This document shows, in pieces, positions 26,127-37,447 of a stretch of 37,593 nucleotides of DNA. How positions within the stretch are numbered: position 1 is the stretch's first letter; every line of letters starts with the position of its first letter. Origin of the DNA: Candidatus Woesearchaeota archaeon. Lineage in GTDB: Archaea > Nanobdellota > Nanobdellia > Woesearchaeales > UBA11576. The notes below the pieces were generated by a model, which worked only from the letters and a program-made list of their open reading frames with translations, ran no database searches and was not told the DNA's origin. The stretch is from positions 1-37,593 of the forward strand of contig JAFGJH010000013.1 of the NCBI GenBank assembly GCA_016929255.1, written 5' to 3'. Position numbers and translations under genes: made by a program.

Positions 26127-26729
26127 CTAGCCGAAGACTATCATCCTGTGATCTCTCTTGACCTCGCTCACCTTCTCGAAAGCCTCATGCACGACCGCTT
26201 CACTGACCGCGAGCTGGCCTTTTTTTGGGTCCATGATGCTGAAGACACCCTGCCTGTATCCATAAACCGGAAGGTAATGTGAATTCCGCTTGTTCTCCTT
26301 GGTGTCCCTCACGATGCCTGCTATAAGCCTCAGAAGAACCACATTTCCATCTTTCAGGGCACTTTTCACGTCTTCGAGCGTAAACTCATTCTCCTCTATG
26401 ACTATCCCTCTGTCCTTTGCGTGCCTGTAAAAAAGCTGCGAGGAGAAATTGGCTATCTCTATCTCCTTCTTCTTGTATGCCTTGAACTTGTAGCCCGGGA
26501 ACTTGTACTCGTGCTCCCCCACGACCACCTTGAGAGGGACGCCTTTCTGGTGCGCGTATATCGCGAGAGCATAGATAGAACTACCCCTTGTGGGCAGAGC
26601 TGCTGTCTTATGCCAGATGTCAAACTCATTGTCGATGTTCAGCAGGAAATCTGGCCTGAAATGGTTGATTATCATAGCCAGCGAAGACGCCGCGCAGGTG
26701 TACTTTGTCGTCTGCTTGTAGAGCTGCAT
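26127..26729 (-). CDS. C39-like cysteine peptidase
   Basis: The 200-residue product starts MQLYKQTTKYTCAASSLAMI: a Gln for the oxyanion hole and the nucleophilic Cys of the papain-like C39 fold. The matching histidine and aspartate are in NSHYLPVYGYRQGVFSIMDP. No transporter or double-glycine leader gene is visible, so it belongs to the stand-alone C39-like group rather than bacteriocin exporters. I start at 26729 because ATTTTTAAATAAAAC lies about 24 bases upstream (leaderless); the open frame to 26837 overlaps the neighbouring gene. It may process a peptide made or handled by the upstream operon. Confidence 0.75.
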   Translation of the reverse strand: MQLYKQTTKYTCAASSLAMIINHFRPDFLLNIDNEFDIWHKTAALPTRGSSIYALAIYAHQKGVPLKVVVGEHEYKFPGYKFKAYKKKEIEIANFSSQLFYRHAKDRGIVIEENEFTLEDVKSALKDGNVVLLRLIAGIVRDTKENKRNSHYLPVYGYRQGVFSIMDPKKGQLAVSEAVVHEAFEKVSEVKRDHRMIVFG

Positions 26730-26791
26730 AGGTATCCGGATACGGGTTTTATTTAAAAATGTTGCTGTGTTTTCAGGCTGCTGGCAAACGC

Positions 26792-27526
26792 TCAACTGAG
26801 CCACCCGCGCTTCTGCCTGCAACAGTCCACAAAACAAGAGAATATCCTCTTGAACACATGGTCTTTCTCCATGAGCATCTCAGGGTGGAACTGAATACCG
26901 ATCACCATCCCATCACATGATTCTATCCCCTCAATAACTCCGTCATCTGCGACTGCAGACATCCTGAAACCTTTAGGCAGGCTGGTGACTGCCTGCCTGT
27001 GAAGGCTGTTCACCGACGTGTCCTTGCGCTTGAGCATCCCTGATAGCTTTGAGCCCTTCATAACGTGTATCCTGTGCGCGGGCGCTTCTTCCTCTCTCTT
27101 CTGTCTATGTTCCACGCCTGTGCCTGCGAAATCAAGATTATCCCTCCCCACAGTCCCGCCAAAGACTTCAGCTATCATCTGATGACCCCTGCATATGCCA
27201 AGGATGGGCAGCTTCGCTTTCCTGGAAGCGATAATCATGTATCTCTCGAAATGGTAGCGCCTGCTGTTCTGCTCCTCCAGATTTGGGAGAATCTTGCTCT
27301 TCCTCTGCTTTCCAGTGAGAGAGCCGCTGCCTCCTCCGGTGACAAGAAGACCGTCGATGGACCTGATGAACCTGCTCGCGTTGGCATATATCGGCAGGAT
27401 GATTGGGATGCCCCCTGCGTCCTGCACTGCCTCTACATATCTCTGATCCACGCAGTACTTGCTGCTGCCCTGGTCGAAGTTGCCTGTAATGCCTATTCTG
27501 GGCTTCTTTTGTCGGAGCATGTTCAT
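26792..27526 (-). CDS. Class I glutamine amidotransferase-like hydrolase (peptidase C26)
   Basis: The 244-residue product belongs to the gamma-glutamyl hydrolase/PuuD group. The triad is intact: Cys in LGICRGHQMIAEVFGG, His and Glu in GIQFHPEMLME; VNSLHRQAV and GLLVTGGGSGSLTG are also typical. Members cut gamma-glutamyl bonds, releasing glutamate or finishing a gamma-glutamylated intermediate. It overlaps the ATP-grasp ligase by four bases (ATGA) and is the last gene of the opine dehydrogenase operon. A ligase paired with such a hydrolase recalls gamma-glutamyl protection and deprotection in biosynthetic pathways; that role is inference. Confidence 0.88.
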   Translation of the reverse strand: MNMLRQKKPRIGITGNFDQGSSKYCVDQRYVEAVQDAGGIPIILPIYANASRFIRSIDGLLVTGGGSGSLTGKQRKSKILPNLEEQNSRRYHFERYMIIASRKAKLPILGICRGHQMIAEVFGGTVGRDNLDFAGTGVEHRQKREEEAPAHRIHVMKGSKLSGMLKRKDTSVNSLHRQAVTSLPKGFRMSAVADDGVIEGIESCDGMVIGIQFHPEMLMEKDHVFKRIFSCFVDCCRQKRGWLS

Positions 27527-28551
27527 CCCAAAAGATCATATACTGCAGATGGCATGACCTTTTTCATGTCTTCAGGTATACACAGGGCGTGACCTTCCCT
27601 GATGTTCCTGCTTATCGCCGCAAGGAAAATCGCGTTGATGGTCGCAGCATAGTCCATGTCCCTGCATCTCATGCCTGTGGGAAAATAATTCTCTATCACA
27701 GACTGGCCGTTGATCTCTATCCCGTAGAGCATGCCATCTTCGCCCATTATGACATCGCACCTCGCATAGTCCCTCATCCCCGCGGCGTCGTACATCCTTC
27801 CTGAAAGCTCCATCAGGATGTTCTGCAGGCCGCCTGGCTTTACAGGTTCAGGCTCGAATATGCTGGTGCCCGGGGCGCAGTCCTTCATCTTCTTGGTTAT
27901 GACGAGCGGCTTTTCACCCTCTTTTGTGATGATCATCTCTGACGGGCCGACAATCTTCCTTTCACCCCTGCCTATCACCGCCACTGTGAACTCCTTCCTT
28001 TCCCTGCCGAGGTACTGCTCTGCGAAAAGCTCCTCAAAACCGTTCGCGCGCAGGTTCTCTGAGACCCTCAGAAGATCCTCTTTTGTGTAGACAACACTCC
28101 TTTCGTCAATACCCCTGCTGCCGCCTTCTCTGGACGGCTTTATGATGAACGGAAACCCTTGTTCAGGGATCTCGCTTCCGGAGCATATCCTGAAATAAGC
28201 AGGAGTGGGTATTCCCTGCGATCTCCACACATCCTTTAGCGCGGTCTTGTCAAGGACAAGGTCGAGAGACTGCTGATCCGAACCTACAAAAGGCACGCCT
28301 TCGCCAGCAAGTATCTCATGGACCTTGCCGCTGACTGAACCGTCATCATTGAAGGTGTAATATGCCCCGCTGAACACGAGGTCAGGGGATACTTCCTTCA
28401 AGTCTCCCAGGAGAGCCGGCGTGGAAGTCACGAACCTGTATTCAGCATCAATCCCTCCGACCCTGAGAGCTTCAATCATCCTTTGGTAAGTCTTGACGCT
28501 TCCTCCCCCTTTTTTATCCCAATCCTGCGCGCTTACTATGAGTGCTTTCAT
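27523..28551 (-). CDS. D-Ala-D-Ala-ligase-like ATP-grasp enzyme
   Basis: The 342-residue product has the ligase layout: an N-terminal Rossmann-like domain (DLVFSGAYYTFNDDGSVSGK, FVGSDQQSLDLVLDKTALKD), the ATP-grasp lysine in FPFIIKPSREGGSRGI, FAEQYLGRERKEFTVAVIG, and the metal site DYARCDVIMGEDGMLYGIEINGQSVIE. Such enzymes join a carboxylate to an amine through an acyl phosphate. Archaea lack bacterial peptidoglycan, and no other wall genes are here, so another amino-acid or peptide substrate is likely. It starts one base after the cobalamin protein's stop and overlaps the C26 hydrolase. Confidence 0.88.
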   Translation of the reverse strand: MKALIVSAQDWDKKGGGSVKTYQRMIEALRVGGIDAEYRFVTSTPALLGDLKEVSPDLVFSGAYYTFNDDGSVSGKVHEILAGEGVPFVGSDQQSLDLVLDKTALKDVWRSQGIPTPAYFRICSGSEIPEQGFPFIIKPSREGGSRGIDERSVVYTKEDLLRVSENLRANGFEELFAEQYLGRERKEFTVAVIGRGERKIVGPSEMIITKEGEKPLVITKKMKDCAPGTSIFEPEPVKPGGLQNILMELSGRMYDAAGMRDYARCDVIMGEDGMLYGIEINGQSVIENYFPTGMRCRDMDYAATINAIFLAAISRNIREGHALCIPEDMKKVMPSAVYDLLG

Positions 28552-28552
28552 C

Positions 28553-30217
28553 TCAAAAACCTCCTAACTTTCCCATCTTCTTTCCAGGCACATCATCCGC
28601 CGAACTTTCCTTCAAAAGCAATCCTGATATCCTCTCCTCCTCGCCCTGGGGCTTCCCGTCTCTCCTGATTGAATACGCCCCGCCATCTATGAAACCGGTG
28701 ACTGCCTCACCTCTTGCGAAGGGGCTGCTCTTCAGCATAGGGGCGTCAAGCACACCAGAGCTTACAAGGCTGCTGAGATAACCCGCATCAGTGATGCAGC
28801 CTTTCCTATGGATATATCTCAACAGAAAACCAGCCTCATCCTTGAGCAGATTCTTCCTGCACTCCACCCCTGGATCTTCAGTCATGTCCGGCGCACCCGC
28901 AGAATTCCTCATCACATGGTATGCTATCCTTGCGCTCCTTACAACCTCATCAGCTGTGGCTGCGTGGTGGGGCTCAGTATAGTTCACGACGTGGACTATG
29001 TCCGGAGCGAGCTGCATCTGGAGCATTGTGGAAGAGGCCAGCTGCGCCCTTGCCTCCTCAAGATCATTCGGGAAGCTCGGCAGGCCGGTCCTTGTCTGCG
29101 TATATGTCCTGAAACTTCCATCCTCAAGGGCGGAAACCATCTCCTTCACCGCGAGCATCTTCGCGAGCTCATTCGAGAATGAGCTTCCGGGAGGCACATT
29201 GAACATGTACTGGTGTATGTAGTCTTTCACGCCGCATGCCTTCGCAATCTCTGCGCCGAGGACAGCAGAAGCGACGACAAGAGAGTCATGCGCCCAGCGC
29301 ATGGCCCAGTGGTGCGCCTCAAGAACCTCTACAGGGATGCCGCGCTCTGCGTTCCACCGGATAAGCTTCAGGTGCTCTCTGACAGACTCCTCAAGACTGT
29401 GCGGGCCCCTCCTATCCATCGCGTTGAACCAGAATACCGGCACTGCAGCCCAGGCATTGCCGAATGCATCCTCATACATCTCCGCAAGCCTGATAAGATC
29501 ATCAGTGCCTGCATAAGTCCTCATGAGCGGGAAATTACCTTTTCTCGTCGCTGCGAAAAGTCTCCTGAAATCATCAGGCAGCCTGACAGGAACGCCTCCA
29601 GCACCTCTGGACCCCGCATCCTGCATTTCAGGATGGTAGAAGCTGGCCTGCGCATCCTGATCAGTGCCCAAAGATACGACATCTATCAGTCCAGATTCAG
29701 CAATGATCCCTATGCCTCCGATTGTATCATCAAGATCAGGGAGGCCGAAGTGCGTCCTGACCAGCGGTGCCCCTTTTTTCCACCGCATCCTGCCTATGAC
29801 GTCCTGAGGAGGAACTTCCTTCAATGGTCTGTCTCCGCTTCCCTGCTTCAGGTATGACCTGACCTCATCAGGATTATTGCCGTCGGAGACAAGCCTGAAC
29901 AGCCCCGACCTCCTAGCGACTTCAGCGACAGGAGGGGTGCCTCCGAAAAGAAAGTCTATGCTGCCGCTGCCCGAACCTTCCCTGTCGAGGCTGCTCTTGA
30001 GCTCGCAGAGCGTGTGCTCCGCTGTCCGGGGTGTAAGCCTGTAGCTTATGGCGACAGCATCAGGAGACTCCTTTTTTATGGCTTCAATCAGCCTTTCTAT
30101 CGATACTGCAGGTCCGAGGAATACGGTCTCGTGGCCTGCTTCCTCCGCATCCCGCAGGAAATTATACACCCCCTGCACATGCACGCAGTCCCCTACTGAT
30201 GCACCTATTATCTTCAC
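28553..30217 (-). CDS. Cobalamin-binding protein with mutase-like TIM barrel, substrate unknown
   Basis: The 554-residue product begins with a B12-binding domain (residues 1-125): SVGDCVHVQGVYNFLRDAEE in place of the usual GDxHxxG (one extra residue between Asp and His), SYRL for SxL, and FLFGGTPP for the GG motif. Residues about 150-480 look like a TIM barrel similar to glutamate-mutase-type catalytic chains (DVVSLGTDQDAQASFYHPEM, VFWFNAMDRRGPHSLEES, VVNYTEPHHAATADEVVRSA). It probably rearranges the carbon skeleton or an amino group of a small acid; the exact family is not certain. The start is a GTG inside the opine dehydrogenase stop (GTGA overlap). Confidence 0.75.
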   Translation of the reverse strand: MKIIGASVGDCVHVQGVYNFLRDAEEAGHETVFLGPAVSIERLIEAIKKESPDAVAISYRLTPRTAEHTLCELKSSLDREGSGSGSIDFLFGGTPPVAEVARRSGLFRLVSDGNNPDEVRSYLKQGSGDRPLKEVPPQDVIGRMRWKKGAPLVRTHFGLPDLDDTIGGIGIIAESGLIDVVSLGTDQDAQASFYHPEMQDAGSRGAGGVPVRLPDDFRRLFAATRKGNFPLMRTYAGTDDLIRLAEMYEDAFGNAWAAVPVFWFNAMDRRGPHSLEESVREHLKLIRWNAERGIPVEVLEAHHWAMRWAHDSLVVASAVLGAEIAKACGVKDYIHQYMFNVPPGSSFSNELAKMLAVKEMVSALEDGSFRTYTQTRTGLPSFPNDLEEARAQLASSTMLQMQLAPDIVHVVNYTEPHHAATADEVVRSARIAYHVMRNSAGAPDMTEDPGVECRKNLLKDEAGFLLRYIHRKGCITDAGYLSSLVSSGVLDAPMLKSSPFARGEAVTGFIDGGAYSIRRDGKPQGEEERISGLLLKESSADDVPGKKMGKLGGF

Positions 30218-31374
30218 CTGTACACCTCGCTGCTTCTTCTTCTATCATATATGAAATCAAAAAGCTCTTTCCTGATGTTAACATCTGTAAGACCAAGACT
30301 GGACAGCGTCCTGCCGTTGAGCCTCAGGTCATAGCCCGTGATGCGCTCTGCTTCCGCAATCAAGTAGTCCATGTTCGGCGTCTGAATGCCCAATGCCCTT
30401 CCGACGAGCGAAAGAGGGACCAACCCTGTAGGCACGTCCTCGAGCAGATACCTGTGTTTCAAGGTATCAGGAGCATATATCCCCCTATATGCGGGGTTGT
30501 CTCTTATCATGCTGCAAAGGCTGTCACCTCTGATAGAATATCTGCTCTCAAGCCATTCTTCCAAAGAGGGGATCATGGTGTCAAGGCTCCTTGCGATCGC
30601 CTGCCTTTCATCATCCAGCTTCTCCATAAATTTCGCTGTGACCTCGTTGACACCCTCACAATAGAACTCAAACCTTCTCCCTTCCCGTATCTTCTGCTGG
30701 TTGAATATGGTTATTGTCGGATGGAATATGGCACCTATGTTCCCCAAGCTCGTGACGAGTATGTTCTTGGCGGCTTTCATCTGCGGAAAAAGGGGGCTGA
30801 GAATATCCAACACATAACCTGTCTGCCAAGGTATGAGAGTGGCGATGGCGACCTCATTTTTCACACCGAAAACGCGCGCTTGCCCCGGCTCGGTCACCCT
30901 TGTGGCATAGACCAGTGTGTTGGCCTCGCAGATTATCACATTTACATCAGGTCTTGCAGAATATATCTCATTAGCAACCTCGAGCGCGCCGAAAGTCCTG
31001 CTCGGGTTGAGCATCATCACCTGCCCGTCATTGAGGTAGGGAGCTACTGACCTTGCGATATCCTTATGGCCTAAAGCAGTAGTCGCGACCATTATCACAT
31101 CAACGCCATCCATCGCCTCTGCGATGTCTGTCGTGACTGCTTCAAGATGCCCTTCAGCCTGTATCGCTCCTTCCAAATTTACCTTTCTGCTCTTCAGGAG
31201 ATTGCCAAGCCTCCCTGGCGACCTGTTGAACAGCTTGACACTATAACCTTTTGAAGCGATGTCCCCTGCAAATGTCTGACCGCCGCATCCCGCACCTAGA
31301 ACCGCAAATGTTGGTTTAATGTTGTTTTCAGGTTTTTCTGTTTTTATAAGGGTCTTTTCTGACATTTTTTTCAT
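30214..31374 (-). CDS. Opine dehydrogenase family protein
   Basis: The 386-residue product starts with a nucleotide-binding fold (FAVLGAGCGGQTFAGDIASKG...VKLFNRSPGR) and contains the octopine-dehydrogenase helical domain with the catalytic histidine region GNIGAIFHPTITIFNQQKI and DMIPSLEEW-like helices. Such enzymes reductively join an amino acid and a 2-oxo acid using NAD(P)H; relatives act in metallophore synthesis. First gene of the operon, with GGAG four bases before the ATG and a TATA-like ACATATAAAATTGG near 31420. The AT-rich gap 31375-31568 contains no gene. Confidence 0.85.
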   Translation of the reverse strand: MKKMSEKTLIKTEKPENNIKPTFAVLGAGCGGQTFAGDIASKGYSVKLFNRSPGRLGNLLKSRKVNLEGAIQAEGHLEAVTTDIAEAMDGVDVIMVATTALGHKDIARSVAPYLNDGQVMMLNPSRTFGALEVANEIYSARPDVNVIICEANTLVYATRVTEPGQARVFGVKNEVAIATLIPWQTGYVLDILSPLFPQMKAAKNILVTSLGNIGAIFHPTITIFNQQKIREGRRFEFYCEGVNEVTAKFMEKLDDERQAIARSLDTMIPSLEEWLESRYSIRGDSLCSMIRDNPAYRGIYAPDTLKHRYLLEDVPTGLVPLSLVGRALGIQTPNMDYLIAEAERITGYDLRLNGRTLSSLGLTDVNIRKELFDFIYDRRRSSEVYR

Positions 31375-31640
31375 TTATCTCCTTTATTTTTCTTTAAAAT
31401 CAGAAAGTAAATGATTAAATCCAATTTTATATGTTTAAAATCGATTAAAATGGTTTTTTAGTGTCTAAAAACTCTTTTCTTCTATTTACTTCTGTTTTTG
31501 GTGTTGTAAAACCTATTTTTTAAACTTTTGCTTTTCTATCGTCGCTTGAAAATGCTTTAGGAGCTCTTTTGTCCCTTCTAAGAGACTTCGCATACTCAAA
31601 AGATATAAATAAACCAGACCTTATGTTTTTAAACCAAAAA

Positions 31641-32858
31641 ATGATACCAACCCTCAAGGACTATGAGAAGATAGCGGGAAAAGAGGTCATCGAGAGGCTC
31701 AAAACTTCTTCTGGGAGGCTTGCCGGCTGCCACATATCCCATGTCAACTCGACATCGCAGGGCGGGGGCGTGGCGGAGATACTCAACACATTAGTCATAC
31801 TCATGAACAGGCTCAAGATAGACACGAGCTGGCGCATATTCAAAGGCTCATACCACCTCTTCAACATCACAAAAAAGATGCACAACGGCCTGCAGGGAGA
31901 CCCCAAGGCCAAGATGACCAGCTTCAGGAAGAGGGTATACCTTGAGGAGACAGAGCGCAACTGCATCATGAACCACTTCAAGACAGAAGACCTGGTGGTC
32001 GTGCATGACCCCCAGCCGCTGGCCATGATAATGCACTACGAGAAGAGGCAGCCCTGGCTGTGGAGATGCCACATCGACATAACGAACGCAAACCCCAGCA
32101 TCTGGGGATTCATCCAGCCGTACGTGAACAGGTACGACGGCGTCATAGTTTCCATGGACCAGTACAAGAAGCCTGACGTCACGCAGCCGCAGCACATCAT
32201 AATGCCGTCGATAGACCCACTATCCATAAAGAACGCGCCGATCCGCGAGGACAAGAGGAAGCAGGTCCTGGGAAAAAGAGGCATAGACCAGGACAGGCCA
32301 ATCATCACACAGATATCAAGGTTCGACCCGTGGAAAGACCCGCTTGGCGTCGTGAAGATATGGGAAAAGGCAAGGAAGGAAGTGGACTGCCAGCTTGTGC
32401 TGATGGGAGACATGGCATCAGACGACCCAGAGGGCCCTGCAATTTACCAGAAGGTGCGCGACAAGATAGGCGACAAGAAGGACGTCCACCTGATAACCGA
32501 GCGCAACGACGTGCTTGTCAATGCGCTGCAGACAGACTCGTCAGTAATCATACAGAACAGCATAAGGGAAGGTTTCGGCCTCACTGTCTCTGAAGCGCTC
32601 TGGAAAGGGACGCCGGTCATAGCGACCGCTGTCGGCGGGATACCCAGCCAGGTCATCCACGGCAAGAACGGCTTCCTGATAAACAACATCAACGAAGGCG
32701 CGAAGCACTGCACCGAGATGATAAACAACACAAGGCTCAGGCAGGAGATGGGAGCGCAAGGCAGGGAGCACGTCCGCAAGAACTTCCTGATAACAAGGCA
32801 CCTGCAGGACTACATAGACATAGCCAACAAGTACATAACCAGGACAGGACAACCCTGA
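31641..32858 (+). CDS. treT: GT4 glycosyltransferase, TreT (trehalose synthase) type
   Basis: The product of about 405 residues matches archaeal TreT, which joins NDP-glucose and glucose into trehalose: MIPTLKDYEKIAGKEVIERL, GGGVAEILNTLVILMNRLKI, VVVHDPQPLAMI, WRCHIDIT, ITQISRFDPWKDPLGVV, VLMGDMASDDPEGPAIYQ, and the donor site IREGFGLTVSEALWKGTPVI. The frame opens at 31569 and an ATG at 31623 is possible; I prefer 31641 because AAAGATATAAATAAACC (about 31598-31614) lies 27-40 bases before it and the sequence then matches the family start. Trehalose would serve as osmolyte or reserve. Confidence 0.85.
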   Translation: MIPTLKDYEKIAGKEVIERLKTSSGRLAGCHISHVNSTSQGGGVAEILNTLVILMNRLKIDTSWRIFKGSYHLFNITKKMHNGLQGDPKAKMTSFRKRVYLEETERNCIMNHFKTEDLVVVHDPQPLAMIMHYEKRQPWLWRCHIDITNANPSIWGFIQPYVNRYDGVIVSMDQYKKPDVTQPQHIIMPSIDPLSIKNAPIREDKRKQVLGKRGIDQDRPIITQISRFDPWKDPLGVVKIWEKARKEVDCQLVLMGDMASDDPEGPAIYQKVRDKIGDKKDVHLITERNDVLVNALQTDSSVIIQNSIREGFGLTVSEALWKGTPVIATAVGGIPSQVIHGKNGFLINNINEGAKHCTEMINNTRLRQEMGAQGREHVRKNFLITRHLQDYIDIANKYITRTGQP

Positions 32859-32898: not shown

Positions 32899-33573
32899 AT
32901 GCCCATGGAAACTCTGGGGTCAATCAAGGACAGGATACCTGAACAGCTGCACTCTGTGCTGCAAAAGGAAGGGATAGACAAGCTGAGGCCAGCACAGGCA
33001 AAGGCGATAAAGGCAGGTCTGCTCGAAGGCAGGTCATTGCTCGTCTGCACACCCACTGCCAGCGGCAAGACCCTTGTCGCAGAGCTCGCCTTCATGAACT
33101 CCATCCTCAACAGGAAAGGGAAGGCAGTCTACATCGTTCCGCTGAAGGCGCTCGCCAGCGAGAAGCACAAGGACTTCAGGCGCAAGTATGCCCACCTGAT
33201 AAAGATAGGGATGTCCATAGGGGACTTCGACTCGTCAGACCCTCACCTGCACACATATGACCTCATTATAACAACCTCTGAAAAGCTCGACTCGCTCATA
33301 AGGCACCACGCGCCGTGGCTGCGGGATGTCGCTGTGGTGATTGTCGATGAGATACACCTGCTAAACGACCCTGGAAGGGGGCCGACGCTCGAGATACTGA
33401 TAACCATACTGAAACAGCTCCTGAAAAAGGTCCAGCTGATAGGGCTCAGCGCAACAATAGGCAACGAGAAAGAGCTCTCAGAATGGCTCGACGCGAAGCT
33501 TGTCCACGACGACTGGCGGCCTGTCGAGCTGCACAAAGGGGTCTATCTCGAAGGGAAGATAGAATTCGGGTAA
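32899..33573 (+). pseudogene. Hel308-like helicase, first RecA domain only
   Basis: The 224-residue product matches the N-terminus of Hel308/Ski2-like helicases: LRPAQAKAIKAGLLEGRSLL (Q-motif region), Walker A TPTASGKT, VPLKALASEKH, TTSEKLDSL, Walker B VDEIHLL and motif III LSAT. It stops at GKIEFG, just where a full protein of about 700 residues would enter its second RecA domain; motifs IV-VI and the winged-helix and ratchet domains are missing, and no frame after the stop continues them. A TATA-like GTTATTTAATAC lies 25 bases before the ATG, so it is probably still transcribed. It is either a truncated gene or one half of a split gene. Confidence 0.7.
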
Positions 33574-33802: not shown

Positions 33803-36800
33803 TTAAGCAGCATACCTCTGTTCGCGCTCTGCCTCGTAGGCCATGAGCTCGTCGAACATCCTGTCAATCTCTGCTTTGTCCTCAGCAGCGCTGCGCTTCT
33901 CTGCAAGCCTGCTGTGCGGATCCGAAGAGGTTCTCTGATCCTCAAGCGCGAGCAGCTCTGCAAGAGCGTCCCGGACATCAGCCGATGCGGCTGCACCCGG
34001 AAGTGGCAGAAGGTTGTCCTTGTCATATTCTCTACCTTCATCAATGGGCTCGATATCCGCTTCAGACAGCTCAATCACCCTATCATCCGCATTAGGCGCG
34101 TAGCTCTGAGGTATCGGCGGGGGAATGTCCCTGTGCCCGTAAGCCTGCGGGTAATCCTCGATCGGCTCATAGTCATTGTCGTGGAGCAGCGTGACCCACT
34201 CGCCGTCATCGTCGAGCATTTCAACTATGTCTGATTCAGACAGCTCTTCAACAGCCCCATTTCCTGCGTCGGCAGTATACTGCACGGGTGTGGGCCGGGA
34301 AATCTCCCTCTTCTGCATATATTGCGCTGGTATCGGCGGAGGAGTGTCCCTATGCCCGTAAGCCTGCAGGGAATCCTCGATCGGCTCATAGTCCTTGTCG
34401 CCCAGCGGCATGACCCACTCGCCGTCATCGTCAAGGACCTCGAACTCGCCGTAATCAAGCTCAGTGACCGCTTCCCCAGGCACACTTATCATGCCTTTCT
34501 CTGCGAAAAGCTGCCTGAGCCTGCTGACGAGCTCATCACCCATGCATGCTGCCATCAACGTATACACATCAGAGGCTACACCATCAGGGCATGCGAAACC
34601 GTGCTTCGCCTCGAACTCAGCAGAGAAGTTGCCCTTTGACAGGGCATTGCCGTACTGCTGGCCGAACAGCGTGTGCCTGTACTCCCTGTTGATCGTGCCG
34701 GCCATCTTCAGGCACTCCTTCGCCAAATTGTTGTCATATGCATCAGCAAAACCTGTGGCTGAAGAGTCTCTTACGACACTATCGTCCGAAATCGTGAACC
34801 TGCTGTTCCTGGAAATCACTTCATCGACAGCCAAGTCGCCGAAGATAGGTATGCCATACTTATCACTGAGCATGACCTCCACGTAGATGGGGATGTCATC
34901 CTGACTCTCAGCCTGCACAGCACCGTCCGGAGAATCAAGGCCTGACAGGTCTGCGTATACAGGGATGTCATCAGCACCGTCGATCAGGACATCATTGCTG
35001 TCAGCGGCCTGCCCTGCTCCGCTTCCGTGCGAATCAAGGCTGCCGATCCTACCGGAACCGCTGCCGTCAGTGCTGCCTGCAGGAACGCAGCCCTCACCGC
35101 ATGGCACACTGTCCTCACAGCCGCTGAGCTCCTCGGCAGCTTCCCTGTGTGTCTCGGGATTCGGAAGAACTGGTGAGAATGTGACCCCTCTGTTATTCGC
35201 GAGCTCCCTCTCTGCAGTGCCTGCAGCGTATATGTCTGTCTCGCTCAGGTTCTCGACATCAAACTCGAGGCCTTCAAGCCCTGCTGCAGCGGCCAATCTT
35301 TGGGCGTCACGCAGGGCTTTCGCTCCGCTCCTCGCGCCTAGGTCTGTGTTGTACCTTCCGTCGTTGAGCACAGGGTGGCCGGACCTTGCGAAATCCTCGC
35401 GGTCTTCCATGCTCCTGTGCGCGTAGATTGTGATGTGCCTGACACCATCGGTGTACCGGCCGACGAGATAATCGCTCAGCGCGTCAAGAGCATCCCTTGA
35501 GACATAATTGGTGGAATCAAAATGCATCTCCAGTTTCAGATTGCAGTTCTTTCTTACAGCATCACCGCCAGCAGTATCCGGTGCCGTCTCTGGCTCCCCA
35601 TCCCCTCCTGCAGCTGCCGCGGGTCCTGCGGGTGAAGTGTGGCCTGAGTCAGGCTCTGGCGCTGCGACGCTTCCTGAACCAGCATCAGATGCTGTGTGAA
35701 GTGCCGCAAGTGCACTGTTGACAGAGGAATCTATCGTCGGTGCGCCTGTATCATGCACTGCGGCTGCTGTTGCAGTATCATGCCTTGATGTGTCTCTCCC
35801 TTCCTGGCCGCGCATAGCGAGGTAACCGCCTATCCCCAGGCCCAGTGCGAGCACACCTGCGGCGACGCCGCCGTATATCCATGCCTTCTTGCGCCTGCTC
35901 ATGGCCGGCTCCACGGGCTCTTCCTTCTGCCTGGCAAGTGCTTCCTTGGCTTTTTCTTCCGCTGCCTTCTTCTTCTCTTCAGCTCTCCTATCTCTCCATG
36001 AATTGAACCTTGCGTACCATCCTTGCGGTCTCTCCTCTTCAGCATTCCCTTCTGCCTCGGGCTTCTTTTCCTGCTGCGGAGAATATGCCTCGGCTGCCCC
36101 TGCTTTTGCAGCAGCATTTGCTTTCTCCCTCTCCAGGCGCTGCTCCAAAGCGGTCGAATGAGAAGATGTTATCGATGTTATCTCGTCATCGATCATCCTG
36201 CCTATCTTGTCATCAGCATGAGGAGCCGCTTTTGCCGACGGCGCGGGAACCGCCATCCCGACGGCAGGTCTTTCTTCCGGCCTGTACGTCTTCGTCACTT
36301 CCTCATCAAACCTGCGGTCTTTTGCCGCTGGCTCTTCAGGAGCATAAACATCATCCTCGCCTGAGAAAAGGGAATGGCCATCTTCTGCAGGTTTTGCAGA
36401 TGCAGTAGCGGGCGCTGCAGCCTCGACTATCAACTCGAGAGGAGACTCTTCAGGCCTGGCTTTCTCTTCTGCAGGCTTAAGAGCATCTGTTCCGGGAGAA
36501 GCAATCCTCCAGAGATATTCAGAACTGATAAACACCTTGTCAGGTTCGTCAGCGGTCCTTGCCGAGGCTGCCACAACAGGAGCAGGCAGGCCTTGTATCG
36601 TGCTCTTCGCAGGCGCTTGCCCTGCTTCGGCAGGCCCTTGTTCCACTTCAACAGGCGGTGCTACAGCTGCCTTCAGCTCGTCAGGCGTAAGCGCGGGTCC
36701 CATTCCTGCCATTGTAGGCTGGCGCGCATCCGGTTCAGCGGCAATCGAAGGAAGCCCAGGGAGTGTAGCTCCATGCGGCACTTCTGGTTCAGCAGGAGAT

Positions 36801-37447
36801 CCAGCAACCTGGTCTTTTCCGGTAAATGGTTGAGGCAAGCCCTGAAGCGTTCCTTGTGCTGGCTTTTTCTTTTCTTCTTCTGGACTCCCGACGCTGCCGG
36901 GAATCACTATCGCGCCTTGGCGTCTAGCTTCCGCCAATATCTCATCTTTTCTGTCTTCAGGAACTTGATCAAGCAGCACTGCGCCGAAAGGTCTCGTATG
37001 CTCTGACCTTGCCGGTTCTTTAGGGATCTGCACACCTTTCTCATCTGCAGGAGGAGATGTTGAGAAAAAATCATCATCGCCTTTCTTGACCCGAGATACA
37101 GAAGCGCCTCTTGTCTCAGGCATTAGGACCCTGAGAAGTCCGCTGCCTTCTTCATCCCTTTCTTCAGCATGTTCGGTCTCATCTTCAGGATGAAGCGGAG
37201 GAAGAGTCATGCCTGTCACCAGTGTAGGCTCCTGCATGCTCGTGTAGAATTCATCAGCTTTGGCGACAAAACCATCCCAGCTTCCAAAGGCCTGGTTCAC
37301 CTGTTCCAAAGAGAAAGTGAGATGATTCCCTTCAAGATCATTCTCTGTCGGCGGTGCGCCATTCCGCTCTATATGCGATGCACCCCACTCTATCATATCA
37401 TCTATTGTTTTCGGGTCTATAAACTTTTCATCATCTTGTCCTGACAT
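33803..37447 (-). CDS. Giant single-span protein with OmpA-like domain and repeated acidic C-terminus
   Basis: The 1214-residue product has, in order: a small domain (residues about 8-70) with PPTENDLEGNHLTFSLEQVN...AFGSWDGFVAKA, like the helix-turn-helix repeats in homing-endonuclease-associated proteins; a long Pro/Glu/Ala-rich disordered region with repeats of QGLPxP/PGLP; a charged helix; a basic stop-transfer and one membrane helix (KKAWIYGGVAAGVLALGLGI, about 515-540); an OmpA-like fold (about 632-760: LEMHFDSTNYVSRDALDALS, HITIYAHRSMED, NNRGVTFSP); a domain with DDIPVYADL/DDIPIYVEV/YGIPIFGDL repeats; and tandem copies of DDDGEWV...YEPIED...AYGHRDxPPPIP. The N-terminus should be cytoplasmic and the OmpA part outside. 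GGTGA precedes the ATG. Confidence 0.75.
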   Translation of the reverse strand: MSGQDDEKFIDPKTIDDMIEWGASHIERNGAPPTENDLEGNHLTFSLEQVNQAFGSWDGFVAKADEFYTSMQEPTLVTGMTLPPLHPEDETEHAEERDEEGSGLLRVLMPETRGASVSRVKKGDDDFFSTSPPADEKGVQIPKEPARSEHTRPFGAVLLDQVPEDRKDEILAEARRQGAIVIPGSVGSPEEEKKKPAQGTLQGLPQPFTGKDQVAGSPAEPEVPHGATLPGLPSIAAEPDARQPTMAGMGPALTPDELKAAVAPPVEVEQGPAEAGQAPAKSTIQGLPAPVVAASARTADEPDKVFISSEYLWRIASPGTDALKPAEEKARPEESPLELIVEAAAPATASAKPAEDGHSLFSGEDDVYAPEEPAAKDRRFDEEVTKTYRPEERPAVGMAVPAPSAKAAPHADDKIGRMIDDEITSITSSHSTALEQRLEREKANAAAKAGAAEAYSPQQEKKPEAEGNAEEERPQGWYARFNSWRDRRAEEKKKAAEEKAKEALARQKEEPVEPAMSRRKKAWIYGGVAAGVLALGLGIGGYLAMRGQEGRDTSRHDTATAAAVHDTGAPTIDSSVNSALAALHTASDAGSGSVAAPEPDSGHTSPAGPAAAAGGDGEPETAPDTAGGDAVRKNCNLKLEMHFDSTNYVSRDALDALSDYLVGRYTDGVRHITIYAHRSMEDREDFARSGHPVLNDGRYNTDLGARSGAKALRDAQRLAAAAGLEGLEFDVENLSETDIYAAGTAERELANNRGVTFSPVLPNPETHREAAEELSGCEDSVPCGEGCVPAGSTDGSGSGRIGSLDSHGSGAGQAADSNDVLIDGADDIPVYADLSGLDSPDGAVQAESQDDIPIYVEVMLSDKYGIPIFGDLAVDEVISRNSRFTISDDSVVRDSSATGFADAYDNNLAKECLKMAGTINREYRHTLFGQQYGNALSKGNFSAEFEAKHGFACPDGVASDVYTLMAACMGDELVSRLRQLFAEKGMISVPGEAVTELDYGEFEVLDDDGEWVMPLGDKDYEPIEDSLQAYGHRDTPPPIPAQYMQKREISRPTPVQYTADAGNGAVEELSESDIVEMLDDDGEWVTLLHDNDYEPIEDYPQAYGHRDIPPPIPQSYAPNADDRVIELSEADIEPIDEGREYDKDNLLPLPGAAASADVRDALAELLALEDQRTSSDPHSRLAEKRSAAEDKAEIDRMFDELMAYEAEREQRYAA
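34100..34470. repeat. Two direct repeats of about 100 bp inside the giant gene
   Basis: The segment at about 34125-34220 recurs at about 34340-34440 with high similarity (shared ATCCTCGATCGGCTCATAGT and ACCCACTCGCCGTCATCGTC). They encode two copies of the DDDGEWV...YEPIED...AYGHRD block, about 70 residues apart. Confidence 0.85.

Follow-up and report, generated by a model that had tools for sequence, protein, structure and literature searches.

Four adjacent genes of a Woesearchaeota archaeon, encoding an octopine/nopaline-type dehydrogenase (ODH), a fused B12 protein, an ATP-grasp ligase and a C26 hydrolase, probably move and work together, and we consider it reasonably likely (probability approximately 0.6) that they form a single biosynthetic module, spread by horizontal transfer, whose product is a small molecule derived from an amino acid. 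This view is supported by an arrangement of genes and overlaps conserved between two archaea, by the families of the enzymes, by an altered mutase pocket and by a chromosomal slot that swaps cargo; the order of reactions, the substrate and even true opine formation are inferred. The genes lie in a stretch of 37,593 nucleotides (the window), which is contig C38 of a genome of 1.2 Mb that is 93% complete and whose size and genes point to a DPANN archaeon. Its relevant features are as follows.

26127..26729, minus strand: C39-like (DUF3335) gene at the slot edge, outside the operon (PF11814, 1.3e-18)
26730..31504, no strand: swapped block, without DNA homology to the same-genus genome G001 (blastn)
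26792..27526, minus strand: peptidase C26/class I amidotransferase-like hydrolase, 244 aa (PF07722, 1.3e-46)
27523..28551, minus strand: ATP-grasp ligase, D-Ala-D-Ala-ligase-like, 342 aa (PF07478 Dala_Dala_lig_C, 2.5e-12)
28553..30217, minus strand: fused B12-binding and glutamate-mutase-E-type barrel protein, 554 aa, GTG start (PF02310, 1.4e-9)
30170..30193, minus strand: B12-ligand motif region G-D-C-V-H-V-Q-G, residues 9-16 (sequence and alignments)
30214..31374, minus strand: ODH, octopine/nopaline-type dehydrogenase, 386 aa (PF02317 Octopine_DH, E=1.8e-40)
31569..32858, plus strand: TreT-like trehalose synthase glycosyltransferase at the slot edge, outside the operon (PF21269, 1.2e-53), at the same position in G001

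The run of four tightly joined genes described in the initial annotation was borne out by the open reading frames and by Pfam, with a 4-base overlap between the ODH and B12 genes, a 1-base gap between the B12 and ATP-grasp genes and a 4-base overlap between the ATP-grasp and C26 genes, and with matches that exceed the family cut-offs for all four proteins. The C39-like gene and a PfkB gene (26094-25126) had also been reported downstream. Both are indeed on the same strand, but a role for them in the operon was not supported. The likely start of the C39-like gene is ATG 26729 rather than TTG 26837, and a TATA-like box, tttttaaataaa, lies approximately 25 nt upstream of this ATG; the PfkB gene has a TATA-like box approximately 25 nt before its own ATG. 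The C39-like gene and a similar TATA-like box are kept in relatives that have different cargo or no cassette, and PfkB is missing from the corresponding position in G001. Because of these separate promoters and this comparative context, both genes were rejected as operon members and are treated here as neighbors.

In a genome-wide scan, the sole relative of the window B12 protein was found in locus L016 of archaeon SI047_bin76 (57% identity). The scan of genome contigs relied on exact peptide patterns taken from a single sequence and may therefore have overlooked bacterial relatives that are more distant. The order in L016 is a first ATP-grasp gene followed by ODH, B12, a second ATP-grasp gene and C26, all on one strand, and the last four of these genes are joined by 4-base overlaps. 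Identities between the window and L016 are 57% for the B12 protein, 50% for ODH and 40% for C26. Both L016 ligases are glutathione-synthetase/RimK-like and are not orthologous to the Ddl-like ligase of the window (E=0.013 and 0.08). The surroundings of L016, with a subtilase upstream and an RNase-J-like gene downstream, are unlike those of the window. The order ODH-B12-ligase-C26 is thus shared with L016, where the ligase is of a different ATP-grasp type and a second one has been added. Since homologous genes stand in this order, with such overlaps, at another kind of chromosomal site, the arrangement is more than chance. Conserved order in an independent context, as sought for a single operon, was thus found in L016.

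The B12 protein had no full-length counterpart in any other genome searched, the overlapping samples comprising 371 genomes from the phylum, 353 from the order and 229 relatives of the L016 archaeon; weak phylum and order matches to the B12 model, which span just a short part of it and lie mostly in longer frames, were not counted. The protein is absent from the same-genus genomes G001-G003, no relative was found in scans of viral contigs or by tblastn against plasmids and phages, and tblastn with the L016 protein as query and a permissive threshold gave weak fragments only. The same ordered set is thus patchy and present in two settings, and joint transfer as a unit is therefore the best explanation, which in turn argues for one shared function. 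The comparison with L016, through conserved order and co-transfer, strengthened the initial view of the four genes as one unit, and with only two carriers any claim of co-evolution among the cassette genes would be limited.

The DNA of the window is 84-87% identical to that of G001 as far as position 26729 and then from 31505 onward, and nothing between these points could be aligned by blastn. The slot, which is edged by the C39-like gene on one side and a short Hel308-like gene on the other, holds varied cargo among relatives: a BshA equivalog that scored 288 bits against a cut-off of 273.7, a pair of BshB1-like deacetylases and a protein of 450 aa that matched no family in G001; two OCD/mu-crystallin enzymes in G002, where the contig ends; Gfo/Idh, glycosyltransferase-like and PIG-L genes in G003; ATP-grasp, ODH and S66 peptidase genes in G004, which is of another genus; ATP-grasp and class I amidotransferase/C26-like genes in G005; and an AstE/M14-like enzyme in G007. 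In a third genus the cargo is a ligase with an amidohydrolase. In G009 the slot is empty. Because of the block swap relative to G001 and these varied cargos, the slot is a site at which genes for small molecules are exchanged, and the cassette is one of its cargos; a number of them combine a ligase and a hydrolase. The slot context also suggested a role in low-molecular-weight thiol metabolism, in which the cassette product would serve as a redox buffer in place of the bacillithiol-like compound made by the sister species. This reading draws on the BshA equivalog that G001 carries in this slot together with two BshB-like deacetylases and on the glutathione-synthetase-like ligases of L016 and G004, but the window cassette has no recognised cysteine-specific enzyme and several other slot cargos appear unrelated to thiols, and we judge it distinctly improbable.

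The window B12 protein combines a B12-binding domain (residues 1-125) and a MutE-type barrel (residues approximately 146-536) in one chain. Against PF06368, the methylaspartate mutase E chain family, the L016 protein (P0008) passed the cut-off of 26.6 with 31.7 bits and the window protein alone (P0001) remained below it with 16.7 bits. When a profile of the two proteins was compared to a MutE profile with HHalign, they aligned over 375 columns with a score of 68 (E=2e-8); the highest score among 60 column shuffles was 27, and the reversed sequence also scored 27. A structure prediction with the two B12 proteins (mean pLDDT 43, pTM 0.28) was credible only in the N-terminal Rossmann part. The cobalamin-dependent rearrangement proposed initially gains weight from this homology to glutamate mutase across the whole barrel and from a B12-dependent ribonucleotide reductase, which scored above the NrdJ cut-off in both carriers. 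Since NrdJ is present in both, adenosylcobalamin is presumably available to each of them; an adenosyltransferase of the PduO type, the one type searched for, was found in neither. The G004 genome, which has an ODH cassette but no mutase, lacks NrdJ, a single case.

The MutE homology, taken at face value, could mean that the protein is an ordinary glutamate mutase of methylaspartate metabolism with accidental neighbors. The substrate pocket of glutamate mutase includes an arginine claw (R66, R149 and R100) and the further substrate contacts E171 and Y177 (PMC9545868). When the cassette proteins were aligned with GlmE, whose reference sequence was checked against PDB 1cb7, the residues R66, R100, R149, E171, Y177 and Y181 corresponded to H156, Q190, Y235, A257 (P in L016), W263 and M267, respectively, in an alignment to MutE of 18% identity in which single columns can shift. 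H156, Q190 and Y235 are identical in the window and L016 proteins, and the claw is lost in both; five of the six replaced residues are among those named as substrate contacts (PMC9545868). Nine of ten other MutE proteins, divergent Streptomyces ones included, have all six residues unchanged, the exception being one Fusobacterium sequence. The GlmE-type Asp96, Glu214 and Glu330 are retained in the cassette proteins, and R233, two residues from the R149 position, could take part. Even allowing for possible column shifts, such wholesale replacement of the pocket is hard to reconcile with glutamate as the substrate. Because each of the six glutamate-binding positions checked has a different residue in both copies, the B12 protein is probably an adenosylcobalamin mutase for a substrate other than glutamate. 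Neither methylaspartate ammonia-lyase nor GlmL was found among the neighbors, and the neighbors are conserved in L016, which also speaks against an accidental setting. The ordinary glutamate mutase reading was rejected on its active-site residues; it is largely excluded and in our estimate very improbable.

Compared to GlmS/GlmE (1ccw/1cb7), the cassette protein thus shares the B12-binding Rossmann domain and the MutE barrel over approximately 375 columns but differs in being fused. The fusion of a B12 domain to MutE is not itself new, because a Roseibium aggregatum protein (L059) has the identical architecture, with the same domain order in a single chain; unlike the cassette protein, it has an intact arginine claw and adjoins an aromatic amino acid lyase and a racemase. 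The B12-ligand motif reads CVHVQG in the window versus DVHVQG in L016, so that in the window DxHxxG motif His13 and the Gly are retained and Asp is replaced by Cys11. This loss of the supporting Asp could either tune the window enzyme or impair it.

The partner enzymes belong to known families. ODH has a GxGxxG NAD site, scored 138.8 bits against PF02317 (cut-off 30) with its Octopine_DH helical and NAD Rossmann domains, and matched N-(1-D-carboxylethyl)-L-norvaline dehydrogenase (CENDH, 1bg6) at 6.8e-67 with phmmer. Its His218 and Asp313 align with the CENDH H-P and E-D-V-x-T-G motifs. It therefore resembles CENDH and the octopine dehydrogenases in full-length homology, NAD motif and catalytic His and Asp positions, but its partner genes differ from theirs. 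The ligase has a Dala_Dala_lig_C domain and matched VanA in the PDB at 9e-18, but it fell below the cut-offs of all NCBIfam Ddl models (76.8 bits versus 243 and 67.3 versus 245.65), and to our knowledge a cell-wall context is not expected in a DPANN archaeon. C26 scored 159.5 bits against PF07722 (cut-off 20.5), and the triad positions Cys112, His214 and Glu216 are present and invariant between the window and L016; it resembles the PuuD/C26 gamma-glutamyl hydrolases in family and triad but reached only 76 bits against the PuuD model, whose cut-off is 266.

An opine-type dehydrogenase could point to an opine metallophore cluster of the staphylopine kind. The operon proteins, however, include neither a nicotianamine synthase nor a PF10100 dehydrogenase, and a metal transporter is likewise missing from them. 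The absence of nicotianamine-synthase-like and PF10100 proteins would by itself count mildly against an opine metallophore of known type, and we regard such a cluster as highly improbable.

The main rival to biosynthesis is a catabolic or salvage module, in which C26 would hydrolyse an imported opine-like or gamma-glutamyl compound, ODH would oxidise the opine, the mutase would rearrange the resulting acid and the ligase would scavenge. Plasmid-borne bacterial relatives of ODH adjoin transporters and catabolic-looking genes, and for this reason opine formation by the cassette ODH is predicted but not assured. In fermenters, glutamate mutase serves catabolism (compare the annotation of L057), and DPANN cells depend on scavenged compounds, which would fit such a module. 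Conversely, the one ATP-grasp ligase in the window and the two in L016 point to synthesis, and a transporter is present in neither operon. Taken together, we consider catabolism unlikely.

Under the biosynthetic reading, the fused B12 protein would act first, as an adenosylcobalamin-dependent radical mutase of the glutamate mutase fold that converts a non-glutamate substrate into an unusual acid or amino acid. The dehydrogenase would then reduce the mutase product or join it reductively, the ATP-grasp ligase (two ligases in L016) would add an amide-bond cap, and C26 would take off a gamma-glutamyl or amide group for deprotection or recycling. Because the ligase alone is exchangeable, ODH, the mutase and C26 may constitute the core and the ligase may tune the final coupling. 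An analogous logic is seen in a Bradyrhizobium plasmid set (L114) of lysine 2,3-aminomutase, gamma-glutamyltransferase, 7TM protein and ATP-grasp genes. As in the cassette, a mutase, a related Ddl-like ATP-grasp ligase and a gamma-glutamyl enzyme stand in a row, but the aminomutase is of the radical-SAM type by annotation and there is no ODH; we know of no function for this set. The cassette gave no PADLOC match that would indicate a defence system.

No described pathway with this gene set was found in the open-access literature, in agreement with the initial statement that none was known from archaea. The family of each enzyme is known; the set as a whole, and a claw-less MutE-type mutase in this setting, appear to be undescribed in that literature. 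A bolder extension, which we hold to be rather doubtful, is that the B12 protein catalyses a coenzyme-B12 mutase reaction of a new type, distinct from those of the known carbon-skeleton and amino mutases, and that its product leads to small metabolites of a new class. These might be low-molecular-weight thiols or solutes that take over the function of bacillithiol in the sister species, and their genes would lie in a slot for the exchange of whole pathways among DPANN archaea.

The known coenzyme-B12 mutase reactions are few, and the cassette provides a defined and testable candidate for another, with the same fold and a different grip on its substrate, whose product is constrained by the partner genes. 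These reduced-genome archaea also appear to trade entire small-molecule pathways at a single locus, which departs from the usual picture of them as purely dependent cells, and the slot with its varied cargo offers a comparative handle on what the products do.

The cassette of the window occupies one site (26730-31504) of an exchange slot whose homologous sites lie in L029 and L046 to L052, loci from the relatives' genomes. The slot is flanked by Hel308-like/TreT on one side and a C39-like (DUF3335) gene on the other, and its metabolic cargo differs in nearly every relative. When the C39-like gene (26127-26729) was compared with its orthologues, the cysteine at the catalytic position was found to be lost in five relatives (G004, G008, G045, G014, and G037), with the remainder of the protein conserved. 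The stand-alone N-terminal Hel308-like helicase domain at 32899-33573 is short (224 aa), and relatives keep a similar length. At 33803-37447 on the minus strand lies a 1214-aa protein in which one apparent transmembrane segment and near-repeated stretches (DDDGEWV...YGHRD.PPPIP) can be made out by eye.

In the same-genus genome, the slot (L046, G001:C22) carries a bacillithiol-like gene set:

Within L046 5561-9483: BshA equivalog, score above cut-off
Within L046 5561-9483: two BshB1-like deacetylases, scores below cut-off
Within L046 5561-9483: 450-aa protein overlapping bshA, no Pfam or NCBIfam match

The 450-aa protein is a candidate stand-in for the cysteine-adding BshC. In G004, from another genus, a related cassette of ATP-grasp, octopine/nopaline-type dehydrogenase (ODH), and S66 peptidase genes (L029 8973-11883) sits at the same chromosomal position; it contains no B12 protein, and the B12-dependent ribonucleotide reductase NrdJ is absent from that genome.

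At a further locus (L030, G155:C6, 5800-16831), an ODH gene lies amid three TrpRS/TyrRS-like paralogues, and this gene set possibly represents an aaRS-derived ligase pathway:

L030 7177-8139, 9227-10231, and 12332-13351: three proteins of ~320-340 aa, without Pfam hit
Within L030 5800-16831, around the ODH gene: M28 peptidase and S66 peptidase

Glutamate mutase E chain (MutE)-like proteins were also seen elsewhere. That of Fusobacterium (L058 501-1943), with altered glutamate-contacting positions (Y66, K149, D171, H177, and F181 in GlmE numbering), is perhaps another mutase with an altered substrate. In Roseibium (L059 1033-3734), a B12 domain and MutE are naturally fused, and neighbouring genes encode an aromatic amino acid lyase as well as an amino acid racemase. 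A Bradyrhizobium plasmid (L114 2198-6963) encodes in a row a lysine 2,3-aminomutase (by annotation), a gamma-glutamyltransferase, a 7TM protein, and a Ddl-like ATP-grasp enzyme, a set whose logic is comparable to that of the window cassette, although the enzymes are unrelated.
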